Below, in pieces: positions 7,912 to 22,900 of a stretch of 64,000 nt of DNA. Under the pieces are notes generated by a model. The model worked only from the letters and a program-made list of their open reading frames with translations. It was not told the origin of the DNA and made no database searches. A program made the position numbers and the translations under genes. Source of the stretch: Strigops habroptila (taxonomy: Eukaryota; Chordata; Aves; Psittaciformes; Psittacidae); contig NC_044278.2 of the NCBI RefSeq assembly GCF_004027225.2, positions 58,087,743 through 58,151,742 of the forward strand. The letters run 5' to 3'. Within the stretch, counting starts at the first letter, position 1, and every line of letters starts with the position of its first letter.

Positions 7912-7917
7912 TTTATT
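7912..7917 (-). terminator. poly(A) signal of H2A variant copy 1
   Basis: TTTATT on the plus strand reads AATAAA on the minus strand, about 175 bases past the stop codon at 8092. I see no histone stem-loop 3' element nearby. Together these suggest a polyadenylated, replication-independent histone transcript. Confidence 0.55.
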
Positions 7918-8091: not shown

Positions 8092-8514
8092 TCAGGAGCC
8101 TGGTGGTACTAAGAACTCCCGTGACCGGGCATATTTGTGGGGTGGTTTAACCGGAGCAGTCATCTTGGGAATAAGTTCAGGACGAACATTAGGTAACACC
8201 CCTCCTTGAGCAATGGTCACACAGTATAAGAGCTTGTTCAGCTCATCGTCGTTTCTCACAGCCAGCTGGATGTGTCTGGGCAGGATCCTGGTTTTCTTGT
8301 TTTCCCGTGCAGCGTTCCCTGCCAGCTCCAGGATCTCAGCGCTCAGGTACTCCAGCACTGCAGCCAGGTAGATGGCAGTGCCGGTACCAATCCTGTCAGC
8401 ATAGTTCCCTCTTTTAAGGAGCCTGTAGATGCGACCCACGGGGAACTGCAGACCAGCTTTGGCTGATTTGGATTTCTTTGGCTCAAGGTGGGACTTTGTG
8501 GTTTTCTTCCCCAT
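8092..8514 (-). CDS. histone H2A variant, copy 1 (140 aa)
   Basis: This is an uninterrupted 140-residue H2A-family protein, a core histone that pairs with H2B in the nucleosome. The fold runs from AGLQFPVGR (about residue 20) through [20 protein letters not shown] to NDDELNKLL and VTIAQGGV. The acidic-patch positions are kept: E in LEY, both E in AEILE, and the D/D/E of NDDE. Compared with canonical H2A as I remember it, about 18 of 90 core positions differ, mostly conservatively ([12 protein letters not shown] in the L1-loop region, [19 protein letters not shown]). The N-tail ([14 protein letters not shown]) is unlike SGRGK. The C-tail is long and basic, and the usual PKKT is PKMT. It is not H2A.Z, macroH2A or a short H2A (H2A.B/L/P), and it has no C-terminal SQ-E/D motif, so it is not H2A.X. 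It probably has a germline or specialised role, but expression is unknown. The start is the first in-frame ATG after a likely 3' splice site at 8535. Confidence 0.87.
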
Positions 8515-8534
8515 TCAGATATTCAGATACCAAT

Positions 8535-8555
8535 CTAGTATAAAAAGAGAAAGCA
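8535..8555 (-). promoter_or_regulatory. candidate 3' splice site in 5' leader of H2A copy 1
   Basis: On the minus strand a pyrimidine-rich run (GCTTTCTCTTTTTATACTAG) ends in AG 20 bases upstream of the ATG. It would let an upstream noncoding exon join the coding exon. This rests on motif shape only. Confidence 0.35.
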
Positions 8556-11500
8556 TTAAAAAAACCCCAAACCAAACAGACACAGAAACTGAAATCCTTT
8601 CTTCCTCTTCATTTCACTCACTGCCTTTCTAATTCCTTTACAAGTCAGTTTTCCATCTCAGAAAGTTTGCTAGTTGTTCATACTTTTGTCTGAAGGAGCA
8701 AATGGGTCAGGCTGCAGCTCTAGGAGAGTCTGACAAGTTTCCAGCCAAGAGGCATAAGCTCAGTAAGATCAACAGGTCATCCATCTGCTAGATTTCCAAA
8801 ACTTTTCAAGACAGTAAGTTAGAACTTAGGAGCAAGGTCTTCTGATTCAGTATCAAAAGGAGGAATGCTATTAAGGAGAAAAGTTAAGCAAACTAGGCTT
8901 CAAGATACTTGCAAGCATTCAGAAACCCTTCAGGGAAGCCTTATTGAACTTGCCCCTCATAAGAACATCAGCAGTTCTTGTGAGAGCCAGACATAGACAC
9001 ATCTTTATCTGAAGTAAGAACAAGAGAAGAACTTCATCTACTGGAAACCACTTCAAATGGATCTTGCCTTCCAGAGGTGAGGGGACCTACAGCTGCAAGA
9101 TAACAAGCCGCAGTCTGGAACAAGACTTATGGGAAGAACAGCTTTAGTTTACGTCAGACACCAAAATTGCTCTGCTCAGCACACTGCACACCAGGCTACT
9201 GCAAATACACAAGTGCAATCTTCTTGTGTGGTACTGAATTCATCCTAACAAGCCCCATCACAAAGTCTTTGCTAATGAATAGTACCAATAACTCTTCAAT
9301 GCATAACACAAAGCAACTGGTCAACAAACATAAAAAAAAAAATCTGCTTCTGTATACATAGTTGTCTCAAGGTTTAAACATTAGTTGTTTTTAAGTACTG
9401 AGAAGCTCTACCTAGATATGGAGAGGAGCTAAATCAGATATCAAATTGAAGTGCTTAAAAATACCATAGAGGTCTTTTAGGAAATTTTTGCAGGCCTCAG
9501 AAAGCTTTTAAAAATAGCCTACACGAGTAGATAAATAAGCCTTTTAAGCAGCCTTAAACCAAACACAGAACTCACAAAAACTCCAGAAACAAATAACGGT
9601 TATCTAACACAAAGAAAACATGTTGACATTTCTTAAAAACAAACACTCACATGAAGAAGTTCTTAGCTTACCTTCTTTCCCAACAATACCACTACCCAAA
9701 ACCACAACTTCTGGGAAGAGCTACCCCCTTTTAAACTCCATAGTGATAGCCATATCCTTACCAGTTCTTGCACCGTTTAAAGCCACCTGGATGAGCAACG
9801 ATTCAACCCCCCAACATAAAGAACAATCAAGGACCAAACACAAGAGCAACTCACTACTGTCTTTGAGAGCATGAAAAATTGTCACTACTCCTTGTAGAGC
9901 TGCTTAGCACCTTGTTAGCTGATATCCTCTGAAAACAAGCCTAATACTTGCTGTATAAGTATTAGGATACTACAGAGAACTGCAGTATCTCTGATCAGCA
10001 GTTAACTTATTACAGCTGGAGGGGGGCACACCTCACGTTGCTGCAGCCATCAAGAATTAAACCGAGCAACCTGTACTACCACTATTTGTGCTGCCAGCAG
10101 TGGCCAAGCTGTTTTGTGACCATGCTGTAGGGCTTGAGAAAGCTCAGGGCCTCTGGCACTTGTTCTCTCTCTTCTAGTACTTGTCCCCACCTGCCACGCA
10201 GTCATTTTTTCTCCAGAATCACTCATAGCTGTGTTGCATGGCATAACATGTCCTTTCTAGGGTCAAGGGTGCAGTGACAGCTGAACAATAATTTTTCTTC
10301 AATACATGAGTGCTGGGAAGTTGAGCTGTGGCCCAACAGAAGCTTTTGCCAAGCAGCTGGGTTAGGAACCCTCTGTTACTCTGAAACCAGAGGGGTGAGT
10401 TTTCAGACCACTATGCTATCTGTTTAACTTAAGAGTGGATTGAGCTATTGGCTAGAAGAAAGCAAAGGAGATTGTTCTTCATCAGTCTTGATAAAAAATA
10501 AAAAACTTTAAAAATTGACTTTCGAATTGGACCAGTGCTTCACCACAAACTCTTTTCTTTGGGTGTAAGTACAGGTAGGGCCACACAGCTCACTCTGTCT
10601 TTTATCATACAGAAAATGGCAGGTGAAGGCACTTCTAGAAGCTACTGAGCACTGGCCGTGCCTTGCAGAGTCTGGTGTGGTGCAAAGTAGGCTTACAGGA
10701 GGGGCATGATGACTGACACACAGTTCTCCAGATTAGCAAAGGGTGCTGTAAGCACCATGCTTAAAACTGCACAAAATTAGTACGTTGATTGGGTCTTCTA
10801 CTATTACCACAAACCTTTAGATTTTCACTTGGTCCAAACAAATAATCATTCTCTAGCCTGCTCTCCCTTGCTATGGTCAAGTGAAGGAAATAAAGTGAGT
10901 TTGATATGTTCATTTCTCATGTGTCTCCTTTAAAGCTTTTTTTTCTTTTTCCCTTTTCATTTACAGGTGTATACAGCCAGCACAAATATAACATCTTCAC
11001 TATACAGAGAAAGCCTAAGATCTACTCTTATTGTTACTTCTCTGCTACAGCATCTTCCACTTTTTCACAGTTCACTGGGTTAATTGCAGGCCAGCCCTGA
11101 TCTCATCAAATTGCTCTTGAAAACCAGCCAGCATACAATCACTGTTCCAGCTGTCCACCACCCTGAAATCACGGTGTCTGCTCAGTCAGGTATCCTCTTC
11201 CCCTTTCTGCATAATCACAGCTTGGAGGAGAGTCATTAACTCGGCTTCATACAGCTCTGATGACTGTCAGCATCACAAATCTGGCCAGTAGGCTCTGACA
11301 CCCTTGTGTCTTGAGGGGGCAAAGGAGGTCAAACTCAATAGGACAAGCAGATATCTTTCAAATAAAACATTTATGCTCCAGTTACAGTTTAGGAAGCTAG
11401 TCCTAGCCAGCTCTTCTCTGTGTAAGATGCTATGAAATCTGTGAGATACTGCCTCAGGGGCAGACTGATACTAATGCAGCTGCAGCAGATCCCTGGTTTC

Positions 11501-12095
11501 CAGTTCAACAGCAAGCTCCAGCACCCACTGTGAACAGAGAAACTCTGGGCACTTTCCTAGGGGAAGACTGTCAATTACTTAGTCAGCAAAGGCCAGGGGA
11601 CTCATTTGGACATGGAGACTTTTGCTTTTCTGCACTGATAGACAGAAGCAAGACAGTCACCTCTACCAACATCACAAATATTGCACCGGATTTTAGATAA
11701 ACTGCGTATGGTTGTTACAACCAGATGGAGGGATAGAGATTTAGTGTCATGTTGGAGCAGTCTAAAGAGAGGCAACCATTCATTACAGCTTTACAACAGT
11801 AAGATTTTAAAGCATAGGGTTACCAACTTCTAAAGCAGACTTAAACAACATCCAGGACACTGAACTAATTACACTGTGAATCCGTGATGTAGGAAAAGTT
11901 CACATGAACAGCAGCATGGGTCTTGACTTCTCTGCCTGACCACAACAGTTACCTGTTGTTTTTTCAAAAAGTAAACATGTACTTGTCATTAGAAAAACTT
12001 ATTTGGGTGGTATGCTAGACTTTTTTGATATTTTCTATGTTCCTCCATCCCTGGAAGGGGAGCTGAGAAACGAAAGGAGAACAGTGTTGCATTCT
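8556..12095. other. noncoding spacer between the two H2A variants
   Basis: It contains no recognised gene and no H2B, H3, H4 or H1 coding sequence, so this is not a canonical histone cluster. The DNA beside copy 1 does not resemble the DNA beside copy 2 by eye. The sequence is AT-rich with short A-tracts and no recognisable CR1. Confidence 0.6.
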
Positions 12096-12101
12096 AGGAA
12101 C

Positions 12102-12107
12102 TTTATT
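12102..12107 (-). terminator. poly(A) signal of H2A variant copy 2
   Basis: TTTATT on the plus strand is AATAAA on the minus strand, about 133 bases past the stop codon at 12240. As with copy 1, no replication-dependent histone stem-loop is visible. Confidence 0.6.
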
Positions 12108-12239
12108 ACAAGCTTTAAAAGTGTATAAAAATTATCAAGGAAAAAAACCCACTTGATAAAGAAGCAAAGACACATACAAATTAGTGCTGCTGAATCTCAT
12201 CACTCGTAAGTACACAGGCCAGCCCAGGAAAAGCAAGTT

Positions 12240-12659
12240 TCACTGGCTACCACCTTTTTCCTGAGAAGGAACAGTATCTCTGGAAGTTTTCTTGGGAAGG
12301 AGCTGGGAAAGGATATTTGGCATAACCCCGCCTTGAGCAATGGTCACACAGGATAAGAGCTTGTTCAGCTCATCGTCGTTTCTCACAGCCAGCTGGATGT
12401 GTCTGGGCAGGATCCTGGTTTTCTTGTTTTCCCGTGCAGCGTTCCCTGCCAGCTCCAGGATCTCAGCGCTCAGGTACTCCAGCACTGCAGCCAGGTAGAT
12501 GGCAGTGCCGGTACCAATCCTGTCAGCATAGTTCCCTCTTTTAAGGAGCCTGTAGATGCGACCCACAGGGAACTGCAGACCAGCTTTGGCTGATTTGGAT
12601 TTCTTCAATGCATCTCCAGTTTTCCCATCCGCTACGTGTTTCTTTCCACATCCAGACAT
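12240..12659 (-). CDS. histone H2A variant, copy 2 (139 aa)
   Basis: This is an intact H2A-family protein with the same fold core as the copy at 8092-8514. From SKSAKAGLQ to CVTIAQGG the proteins differ at one residue: S here, Y in copy 1, in the NKLL-(S/Y)-C stretch. The tails differ. The N-terminus MSGCGKK is closer to canonical SGRGK, but R3 is replaced by C. The C-tail keeps LLPKKT, so both lysines of the H2A ubiquitination site are present, and ends in SQ with no following acidic residue. The acidic patch is conserved. It looks like the less derived member of the pair. The ATG is the first after a good 3' splice site at 12726-12750. It is a nucleosome core component by homology. Whether it is testis-, oocyte- or embryo-specific cannot be read from the sequence. 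Confidence 0.88.
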
Positions 12660-19900: not shown

Positions 19901-22900
19901 AGCATCTATTGACTGTGTAAACTTGCTTTTGTTGCTCTGGGGTTTAAAGAAGTTTGTAATGCGTCTCTAAAGTGTAGATTTCAAGCAGCTGCTTTAAGTG
20001 TTATTCTGTCAAAAATGCATCTATTCTCAAGATCTCTTTCCCATTCCTTGCTGTTCAGGCAGCAGAGGTTAGCAGAAATGAAAGCAGCACAAATGAAGAA
20101 TAAATTTGGGGAAGTTTTGGAGATTTCGGGAAAAGATTACATTCAAGAAGTTACAAAAGCTGGAAAAGATGTATGGGTAGTCCTGCACCTCTATAAACAA
20201 GGGTAAGAATTTATTTTTAAACTTTAAACCTCTCACTGTCAGTAGTTGAAAATACTGTAGACAAATGTGTGGTATTGTGGAGATAAAGGAACTGATTCTG
20301 AAGTTCTGAGAAATAAATTGAATTAGTAATTTCATTACTGTTGACTCAAGACTGCCAAACTTAGCCCTAAAATGATGTTACCATGAAGAACCCTTTTTTT
20401 GTACATCTATATAGCACAGCACGACTTGTACCGTACAGCTACCACAGACATAGCTGCTGCAGTGAAATATCGAGGTTTTGGAAATTATTCCAGATAAGGT
20501 GTGAGAGTCTGTGCTTTAGAAGGATCACTGTGTGTCTTAGCCTGGTTTCTAGAGGCATAAAAAAGGAGTGAACAAGGTTTCCAGTCCTGTCAGCATGTGG
20601 AAGAACGTGTCTGATAAGTTGCCAGAATTTTCTGGAAAGGGTTAGAAGTGTTTGATTTTGTTCATTATCTCTAATTGCCCAACAGGTGTTCATTGTCGTT
20701 TGCATACTTTCTTCCAGGGAAGATCATTTTTATTTTGCCCTTGCTCATGCAATTTCTAAAGATCATATCTTCATAAATCAATTTACCTGTATGGTAGAGG
20801 GAAAGGTTGTATTGCTAATACCTTAAAACAAAAACCCCACCACTCACCAAAACCTCCAGTGATGCTGATTTCTTTTGAACACTGAAGTATTGGACAACAA
20901 AAGTATTCAGAAGTTGCTTCTGGTAAACTTGTCTTTCCATAAATGCTGCTTATTGAGCTGATATTTCTGACCTTTCTTCTGGAGCAGGTTACTGTCTTTT
21001 TTCCCATATGTGTCTGTTGCTGTTCACAGAATTCCACTCTGTGCCTTAATAAATCAACATATGAGCGGGCTTGCAAGAAAGTTCAGAGATGTGAAATTCA
21101 TCAAAGCTATCTCTACCACCTGCATTCCCAACTACCCCGATAAGAACCTGCCTACGATATTTGTCTACTTGGAGGGAGACATCAAAGCTCAGTTCATTGG
21201 GCCTTTGGTGTTCGGTGGCATGAACCTGACAAAGGACGGTGAGTGGCTGCATCTCCCATCTTCCAAAGGAAAAGCAAAACTACTTTTCTGAGAATGAGAG
21301 AAGTGAGGTTTATGAGGAGAAGGGAGCTACTAAAAATTATATTAGATTTTTTTTCTGCACCCTTGTAGCTCAGCAACATGCGATTAAGGCTTCTTGTAAA
21401 AGCAATGAGTGGCTGAGTAGGCCAACATACAGATATTAATCTTACGTGTGTGGAAGTATTCACACCCTATGCTGGGTGAAACAAATTTTTCTGAATATAT
21501 TAAACAGTAAATAGTGCCCACACATATTCTTTGGGGCTCTTGTACCTGAATGACTTACCTTGCCCCCAGTTGCTGAGTAATCTGTGCACTTGATAACTGG
21601 TGCTTGCCTACTGCATTGTAGTGCTCCTTGTCTCAAGCTGATGGCATGCATTTATCTGTTTTGCTTTCCTGACATGCAGGCTCTGCTCCTCATGAAACTT
21701 TAAAGAGAGCATGTCCATTTGTCCAAATGGGGCTGCTAGCCTGAAATTGGGTTACTTCCCTTTCCTTTTGCCATCTCGTAGAGATGGCAGCGTGTTAAGC
21801 TCCTGCCTCAGTAGTTTGGGGGCACAGGGCTCCACGGGGAGAGGCTGTTACCTTTCCCGGAGATCGTAGTTTTCCGTAGACCTGTTTCTCCTTGCCCATC
21901 TCAGTAGCCTGGAGACAGGCTGGGTTGTGCAGCCTCGTCAGCATGATGTGCTTCAGGATGTGATGAGGGCAGTGAGGCAGGTCTTGGAGCACTGTGGCTC
22001 TTCAGCAAAAGCTGCTGTTTGGAGGTGGTTGGGGATGGTGTCCTACAGCAGTGCTTGAAGACAGAGGTCAGCAGTGAAAAAGGTTCTTCTTGGAAAGCAC
22101 ATGCAACTTGGATGTAACCTAGTGGATTTTACTTCAGTTAAAAGGATACTCATCAGCTTTCTCAGTAGGTGTATTGGTCCAGATGCCTTAAAGTTGTTTT
22201 TTTTTTAAGGTCAGACTTTAACGACATCTTTATCTGAAGTGAGCAACAGTTAAGCAGCATTTCAGGGTCCCTGCTGGATTATATCACTGTCTGTACTGGG
22301 ATAGGGTGCAAAGAGGCTTGGGTTTTCTTTTTCCTAAAACCCTGAAGTTTACAGGATACTTTGAGCATGTGCTGTAGAAAATGCTTCTCTGGCTGGAACT
22401 GTCAGAAGGGGAAGAGCTCACCAGTGAGATCAGTGATTTGAGAACAGCTAACTGACTACAGTGCATGCCTAATTATGTACTGAAGTGAGCAGTGGTAGCA
22501 GAACCTATAGTTATTTCTCCCACTTTTAGTACATAAATAATTGATTTTGGGGGATGTCTGAGCCAGCTTAATTCGGTCATCACAGAAAGCTGGGCACTGG
22601 AACTCCACACATTCTTTTATTTATTTCTTCCTTCCTTCTCCCCTAAGCCCAGGTGACTTCCACCAGAGATTAAAGAAAGTGTGAGGTTGTATTCATTACT
22701 CTGTAATTTCTGGAGGAAATTTGATTTAATGATAGGTTTGCAGCAGGAGTAGGAGAAAGGTTTCAACTGAATGTGTTGTATTGACTTTCTGCTGCTTCTG
22801 GGAAGCAATCCAGTTTGGGCCTACGTAGTAATAGGCCTACTATTGATGGTGGAGTCCCTCTTTCTGTATTGCCAAGGAACTAATGAGCAGGCCATAGTGT

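Follow-up and report, generated by a model that had tools for sequence, protein, structure and literature searches.

Copy-specific tails on a histone-fold segment apparently shared by recurrent gene conversion in a linked pair of bird H2A-variant genes

The window analysed here is a stretch of 64,000 nucleotides from the parrot Strigops habroptila (contig NC_044278.2, forward-strand positions 58,087,743 to 58,151,742), and it contains two histone H2A-variant genes, copy A and copy B, which lie ~3.7 kb apart as single-exon genes on the minus strand. Both proteins match the Pfam families Histone and Histone_H2A_C above the cut-offs, placing them in histone H2A, and tblastn found no third copy within the window. 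Neither gene looks replication-coupled, because an AATAAA lies downstream of each, a pattern search found no histone 3' stem-loop in the 600 bases downstream of either gene, and no Rfam match in the window reached the gathering score. The two genes share a nearly identical histone-fold segment, the core, set between tails that differ (Table 1). Comparison with other birds supports, with a probability of about 0.9, a linked H2A-variant pair whose fold segment has been repeatedly overwritten by gene conversion while the tails have stayed copy-specific.

Table 1. Features of the two H2A-variant genes in the window, with coordinates counted from its first letter.
Feature	Position	Strand	Basis or remark
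Copy A, intact H2A-variant open reading frame (ORF), 140 aa, A-type tails	8092..8514	-	ORF list, Pfam; C-tail scores 59.3 bits on profile A, 6.4 on B
Copy B, intact H2A-variant ORF, 139 aa, B-type tails	12240..12659	-	ORF list, Pfam; C-tail scores 62.8 bits on profile B, 29.4 on A
Homogenised core of copy A (ends TIAQGG)	8204..8478	-	273/275 bases equal to 12331-12605
Homogenised core of copy B	12331..12605	-	same ungapped alignment with copy A core
N-terminal tail of copy A; start later than the usual bird MSEHGKK	8479..8514	-	protein alignment
C-terminal tail of copy A; SREF at 8113-8124, then LVPPGS	8095..8203	-	most bird A copies end SQEF
N-terminal tail of copy B	12606..12659	-	alignment, tail profiles
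C-terminal tail of copy B (...PSQEKGGSQ)	12243..12330	-	alignment, tail census
AATAAA past copy A	7912..7917	-	starts 175 bases beyond ORF end
AATAAA past copy B	12102..12107	-	starts 133 bases beyond ORF end

The two cores align over 275 bases without gaps and differ at two positions, 8225/12352 (T/G) and 8440/12567 (G/A), which fall in the codons TAC/TCC (Tyr/Ser) and CCC/CCT (Pro, silent). The original prediction had described near-identical cores with dissimilar flanks, and alignment and a codon check reproduced its coordinates and both differences exactly. Synonymous divergence between the cores amounts to 1 change in 67.7 sites (synonymous rate, dS, ~0.015; rough 95% upper bound on the synonymous proportion, pS, 0.082). 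Ungapped DNA similarity drops to background on either side of the core, except for a half-similar run of ~20-25 bases beyond 8204, and blastn of ~2 kb of flank per side returned nothing beyond 12-25-base matches with E values of at least 0.06; the one long flank match is the 148 bases common to both query stretches. At the protein level, weaker similarity continues on the C-terminal side across the conserved LLPKKT region, and tblastn gives 87% over 115 residues overall. GC content is 0.535 in the core versus 0.37-0.43 in four 500-base flanks. GC-biased conversion was set aside as an explanation, since this contrast cannot separate coding composition from biased conversion.

Relatives of both genes were drawn from protein searches (the best 120 of thousands of matches per search), and pairs were picked by eye on equal species name, giving 21 bird species with both genes, the window included. 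The sample spans palaeognaths to parrots, with Rhea, three tinamous, Grus, Trogon, Colius, four shorebirds and Nestor among the 20 others; Pterocles gutturalis and Merops nubicus were excluded because the second entry in each was a piece of the same A gene, and the two copies of Colius and of Cariama lie on contigs of unequal length and perhaps come from different assemblies. Comparison across species was made at the protein level throughout, and DNA was compared in the window only. In 16 of the 20 other species the longest contig listed has an equal length for A and B, which suggests that the two are linked. Among the matches listed, the closest near-full-coverage relative of copy A is Nestor P0121 (91% identity over 96%) and that of copy B is Eolophus P0005 (95% over 96%).

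Alignment columns were counted according to whether residues are shared by the two copies of a species or by the same copy of two species, over all pairs of the 21 species. The core columns favour species over copy by 1761 to 23, and the tails show the reverse, with 7:300 in the N-tail, 75:749 in the C-tail and 82:1049 when both are pooled; N-tail counts leave out Nestor, Cariama, Egretta and Phalacrocorax, in which one copy lacks this tail (n = 17). In Jacana, for example, both copies carry VHRHLRMG and AHQNKK, and both Rhea copies carry AAQENKK, whereas typical A copies have the ends MSEHGKKTTKLLLVPKK and KPPHKYVQSQEF and typical B copies have MSGRGKKHAVAGKPG at one end. The counts keep their direction when each of 14 orders is represented by a single species (core 626:9, N-tail 3:116, C-tail 21:305) and within groups of close relatives (core 47:0 in four shorebirds, Charadriiformes, and 33:1 in three tinamous). 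Mean A-B core identity is 0.944 within the 21 species versus 0.847 between species, and when species labels were shuffled 100000 times the observed core identity was never reached. No species effect was found in the tails, where shuffling gave values at least as high in 19467 of 20000 draws for the N-tail (n = 17) and in 2810 of 20000 for the C-tail (n = 21).

Trees agree with the column counts. In the core tree, A and B of the same species are sisters in 17 of 21 species, and 14 of these pairs are firm: 13 have a Shimodaira-Hasegawa-like approximate likelihood ratio (SH-aLRT) support of at least 80 and the two Rhea cores are identical. Monophyly of the A copies in the core tree was rejected by the approximately unbiased test (p-AU 1.6e-6, with the identical Rhea rows left free). 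In the tail tree no species (0/17) has its two copies as sisters, and the split between A and B has a support of 99. At the protein level, then, cores group by species and flanks by copy, as is characteristic of paralogues under conversion, with 4 of 21 species departing in the core tree. The prediction that cores would cluster by species and tails by copy was thus borne out by column counts, trees and subsampling of orders.

The shared segment has consistent borders. The alignment switches from copy-wise to species-wise grouping at columns 18-21 on the N-terminal side and back at columns 113-116 on the C-terminal side, and the DNA borders of the core in the window fall within a few codons of both switch points. 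The shared stretch is longer in Chordeiles (to LLPKKTV) and Eudromia (to LLPKKT), and mixed tails occur in P0171 (Rostratula) and P0176 (Anhinga). Two proteins from short contigs, P0164 and P0184, join a B N-tail to an A C-tail and the reverse, and may be real recombinants or assembly chimeras.

We infer that the process is interlocus gene conversion, which would overwrite the histone-fold segment time and again and halt near the same borders. Tracts would end where the tail or spacer DNA of one gene has no match in the other, and on this simplest reading the diverged tails would protect themselves. The result looks like concerted evolution across birds, of which the window would be the latest round. 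The recent gene conversion proposed in the original prediction is supported as to process and gives way as to number, since the pattern appears in most of the 21 species rather than marking a single recent event. A single recent exchange confined to this parrot lineage, with the two genes diverging normally in other birds, would suit the near-identical synonymous sites of the window cores, which make the last exchange look recent, but it is made very unlikely by the 16 of 20 other species whose A and B cores are sisters in the tree and by an A-B core identity above 0.847 in 19 of those 20 (barely so in Urocolius, 0.849; Trogon lies below, at 0.828).

Collapse of reads from two similar genes, leaving cores that only seem identical, has in its favour that mis-joins can arise where an identical stretch exceeds the k-mer length, and that the short-contig proteins P0164 and P0184 mix A and B tails. 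The window cores still differ at two bases, however, and cores differ at one or more residues in 19 of the 20 other species (all but Rhea) while sharing residues that other species lack. The pattern also repeats across many separate assemblies, some with contigs of more than 200 Mb (Grus, Rhea), and we give an artefact very little credence. Purifying or parallel selection on the protein could keep cores alike in the absence of DNA exchange, in line with the strong conservation of histone folds and with an A-A and B-B core identity of 0.84-0.85 between species. Such selection would not account for so low a synonymous divergence in the window (1 change in 67.7 sites), nor for the 1761 column patterns in which a residue common to the two copies of one species is absent from both copies of another, and it is highly improbable as the explanation. 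Re-duplication in each lineage, with the new copy regaining the old tails by unequal crossing-over, can point to the recombinant-looking tails (P0171, P0176, P0164/P0184) but is scarcely credible, because every lineage would need two exchanges, always on either side of the same core, where conversion needs one, and because the tails split into A and B at a support of 99.

The copy-specific tails differ in a recognisable signalling motif. H2A.X is defined by a terminal SQ(E/D)-hydrophobic motif, and the excerpted source calls the group paraphyletic or polyphyletic (PMC3380720). In a census of bird tails, 44 of the 52 A-type C-tails judged full-length end in SQEF and so carry this motif; the remaining 8 end in LQEF (2), SHEF, SQKF, SQGF, RRSS, LLTL and the PPGS of the window. 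None of 101 B-type proteins, a set that includes a turtle protein (P0104), proteins lacking an organism name (such as P0066) and many sequences annotated as partial that stop at SQE, has an SQ(E/D)-hydrophobic end, and 23 B-type tails continue from SQ into a G-containing extension (e.g. SQEQGGSQ, SQEYGGSQ). No C-tail could be read in P0001, P0098, P0152, P0183 and P0186, which belong to neither set; of these five, two terminate in SQEF (P0152, P0186) and one in PQEF (P0183). We also observed seven B-type tails in which SQEY or SQDY runs on into GGSQ or a similar end (P0031, P0034, P0047, P0054, P0056, P0070 and P0079; five from songbirds), which look like extended H2A.X ends. Among the matches listed, no passerine is named in the 55 A-type proteins, two of which lack an organism name, and many are in the B-type set; copy A may have been lost in passerines.

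In the proposed mechanism, selection would keep both tails, A with a phosphorylatable SQEF end of the H2A.X type and B with a predicted plain end, and the outcome would be one nucleosome body serving with two signalling ends. The idea that natural selection maintains one core with two tails had been raised from the window itself; it fits the other birds, with SQEF on most A copies and on no B copy, but in the window copy A has lost the motif. Copy A there reads SREF followed by LVPPGS (8095-8124) and has its start codon within the usual N-tail, and copy B ends in GGSQ, not in the H2A.X motif. Judged from its sequence, the A tail of the window has lost its predicted phosphorylation end while the core is still homogenised. 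Selection on this tail may have relaxed, because the SQEF motif is gone. At the other end of copy B, the N-terminus (12648-12659, minus strand) reads MSGC where most bird B copies have MSGR; the Eolophus B copy also has Cys, and Arg3 may have been lost from B in some parrots.

In the lineage of the window, the last transfer would have run from B to A. Four other parrots (Nestor, Pezoporus, Amazona and Melopsittacus) have A, V and K at columns 52, 54 and 73 of their A copies, where both window copies have T, I and N; of the three residues seen in the window, Nestor B has T and I, and Eolophus B has I and N. This direction is likely, on thin evidence from residues at three columns, and the window A residues at columns 54 and 73 could also be old states, retained or regained.

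Several observations weigh against the recurrent conversion of a core between two maintained tails. The B-to-A direction is weakened by variation at columns 52 and 73 among the B copies of other parrots, and by Grus and Rhea, which carry I and N at columns 54 and 73 as window copy A does. In the core tree A and B are not sisters in Rhynochetos, Numenius, Urocolius and Colius (4/21), and the sister pairs of the window, Chordeiles and Cariama are without branch support. Core counts are undecided in Coliiformes (2:2) and, in parrots, too small to say much (2:0). The core and tail trees come from quick searches, the tail tree from 47 columns, and the relatives are those at the top of very long match lists. 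Copy A of the window ends without the H2A.X motif. Conversion is thus frequent yet not constant, as seen in the exceptions in the core tree and in the 2:2 of Coliiformes against the counts in shorebirds and tinamous.

SQEF ends also occur outside birds: of 10 salamander proteins 9 end in VQSQEF, as does one protein from a skink. By tail profile the skink tails are A-like and the turtle protein B-like, and the salamander proteins are intermediate, most of them slightly towards A and one towards B. Because of the A-like skink tails and the B-like turtle protein, the SQEF tail may be the older of the two, which we offer as a lead rather than a result. A broader and more doubtful proposal, with the odds against it, is that a sauropsid branch of the SQEF-tailed egg-type H2A.X has been kept by birds as a two-gene unit, in which conversion shares the body and selection separates a tail able to bear the DNA-damage mark from one unable to, its SQE being covered by an extension. 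If this were true, the signalling capacity of germ-line chromatin would be set by exchanging tails on a common body, with the nucleosome unchanged, and loss of either side, as in the A tail of this parrot and perhaps the A copy in passerines, would be a natural experiment.

Elsewhere in the window, an ORF at 21010-21291 on the plus strand matches the PDB entry Phosducin-like protein 3 (E 1.8e-41, residues 7-79), with a weaker match to phosducin-like 2. It lies ~8 kb from copy B and is probably an exon of a PDCL3-type gene. Pfam gave no matches for eight ORFs of the window besides the two H2A genes, although the PDB search did match one of the eight.

The pair is a case of domain-wise evolution within linked histone genes, with the body evolving in concert, the tails by copy and the borders held within a few codons over 21 species. 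Trees of whole proteins could mistake such genes for young duplicates in each bird, and databases name the pair piecemeal, as 'sperm-like', 'H2AX' or 'late histone H2A'. The role of H2A tails on an equal core would become testable by comparing species.

A search of the open-licence literature, judged by titles and the starts of abstracts, found no paper on the bird H2A pair, and the main text of a turkey oocyte study (PMC8508634) does not mention H2A by name. A process of this kind has already been described in mammals: according to the excerpted report, H2B.W.1 and H2B.W.2 have undergone recurrent gene conversion with species-wise clustering, which ended in the fold of simian primates (PMC8857922). 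Like that pair, the bird genes are adjoining histone-variant paralogues with divergent N-tails, more similar folds and species-wise clustering. Unlike it as described in those excerpts, they are H2A genes of birds, are copy-specific at both ends and in most birds seen carry one H2A.X-type C-terminus. To this the bird pair adds an H2A example that extends over the species compared with consistent borders, has tails distinct at both ends and splits an H2A.X-type end from a plain one.

SQEF marks the Xenopus egg variant H2A.X-F in the section available (PMC4191874), which the bird A copies resemble in the C-terminal SQEF of 44/52 full-length tails; copy A of the window differs in lacking it, and the bird A copies are likened to H2A.X-F by sequence alone. 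In partial texts, SQEF also ends a mussel H2A.X (PMC3256202) and Arabidopsis H2A.X.3 (PMC3380720), so SQEF alone is no proof of kinship. Measured against H2A.X generally, as the excerpts of PMC3380720 define it, most bird A copies share the terminal SQ(E/D)-hydrophobic motif, whereas the SQE of copy B carries a short extension that makes the motif non-terminal.

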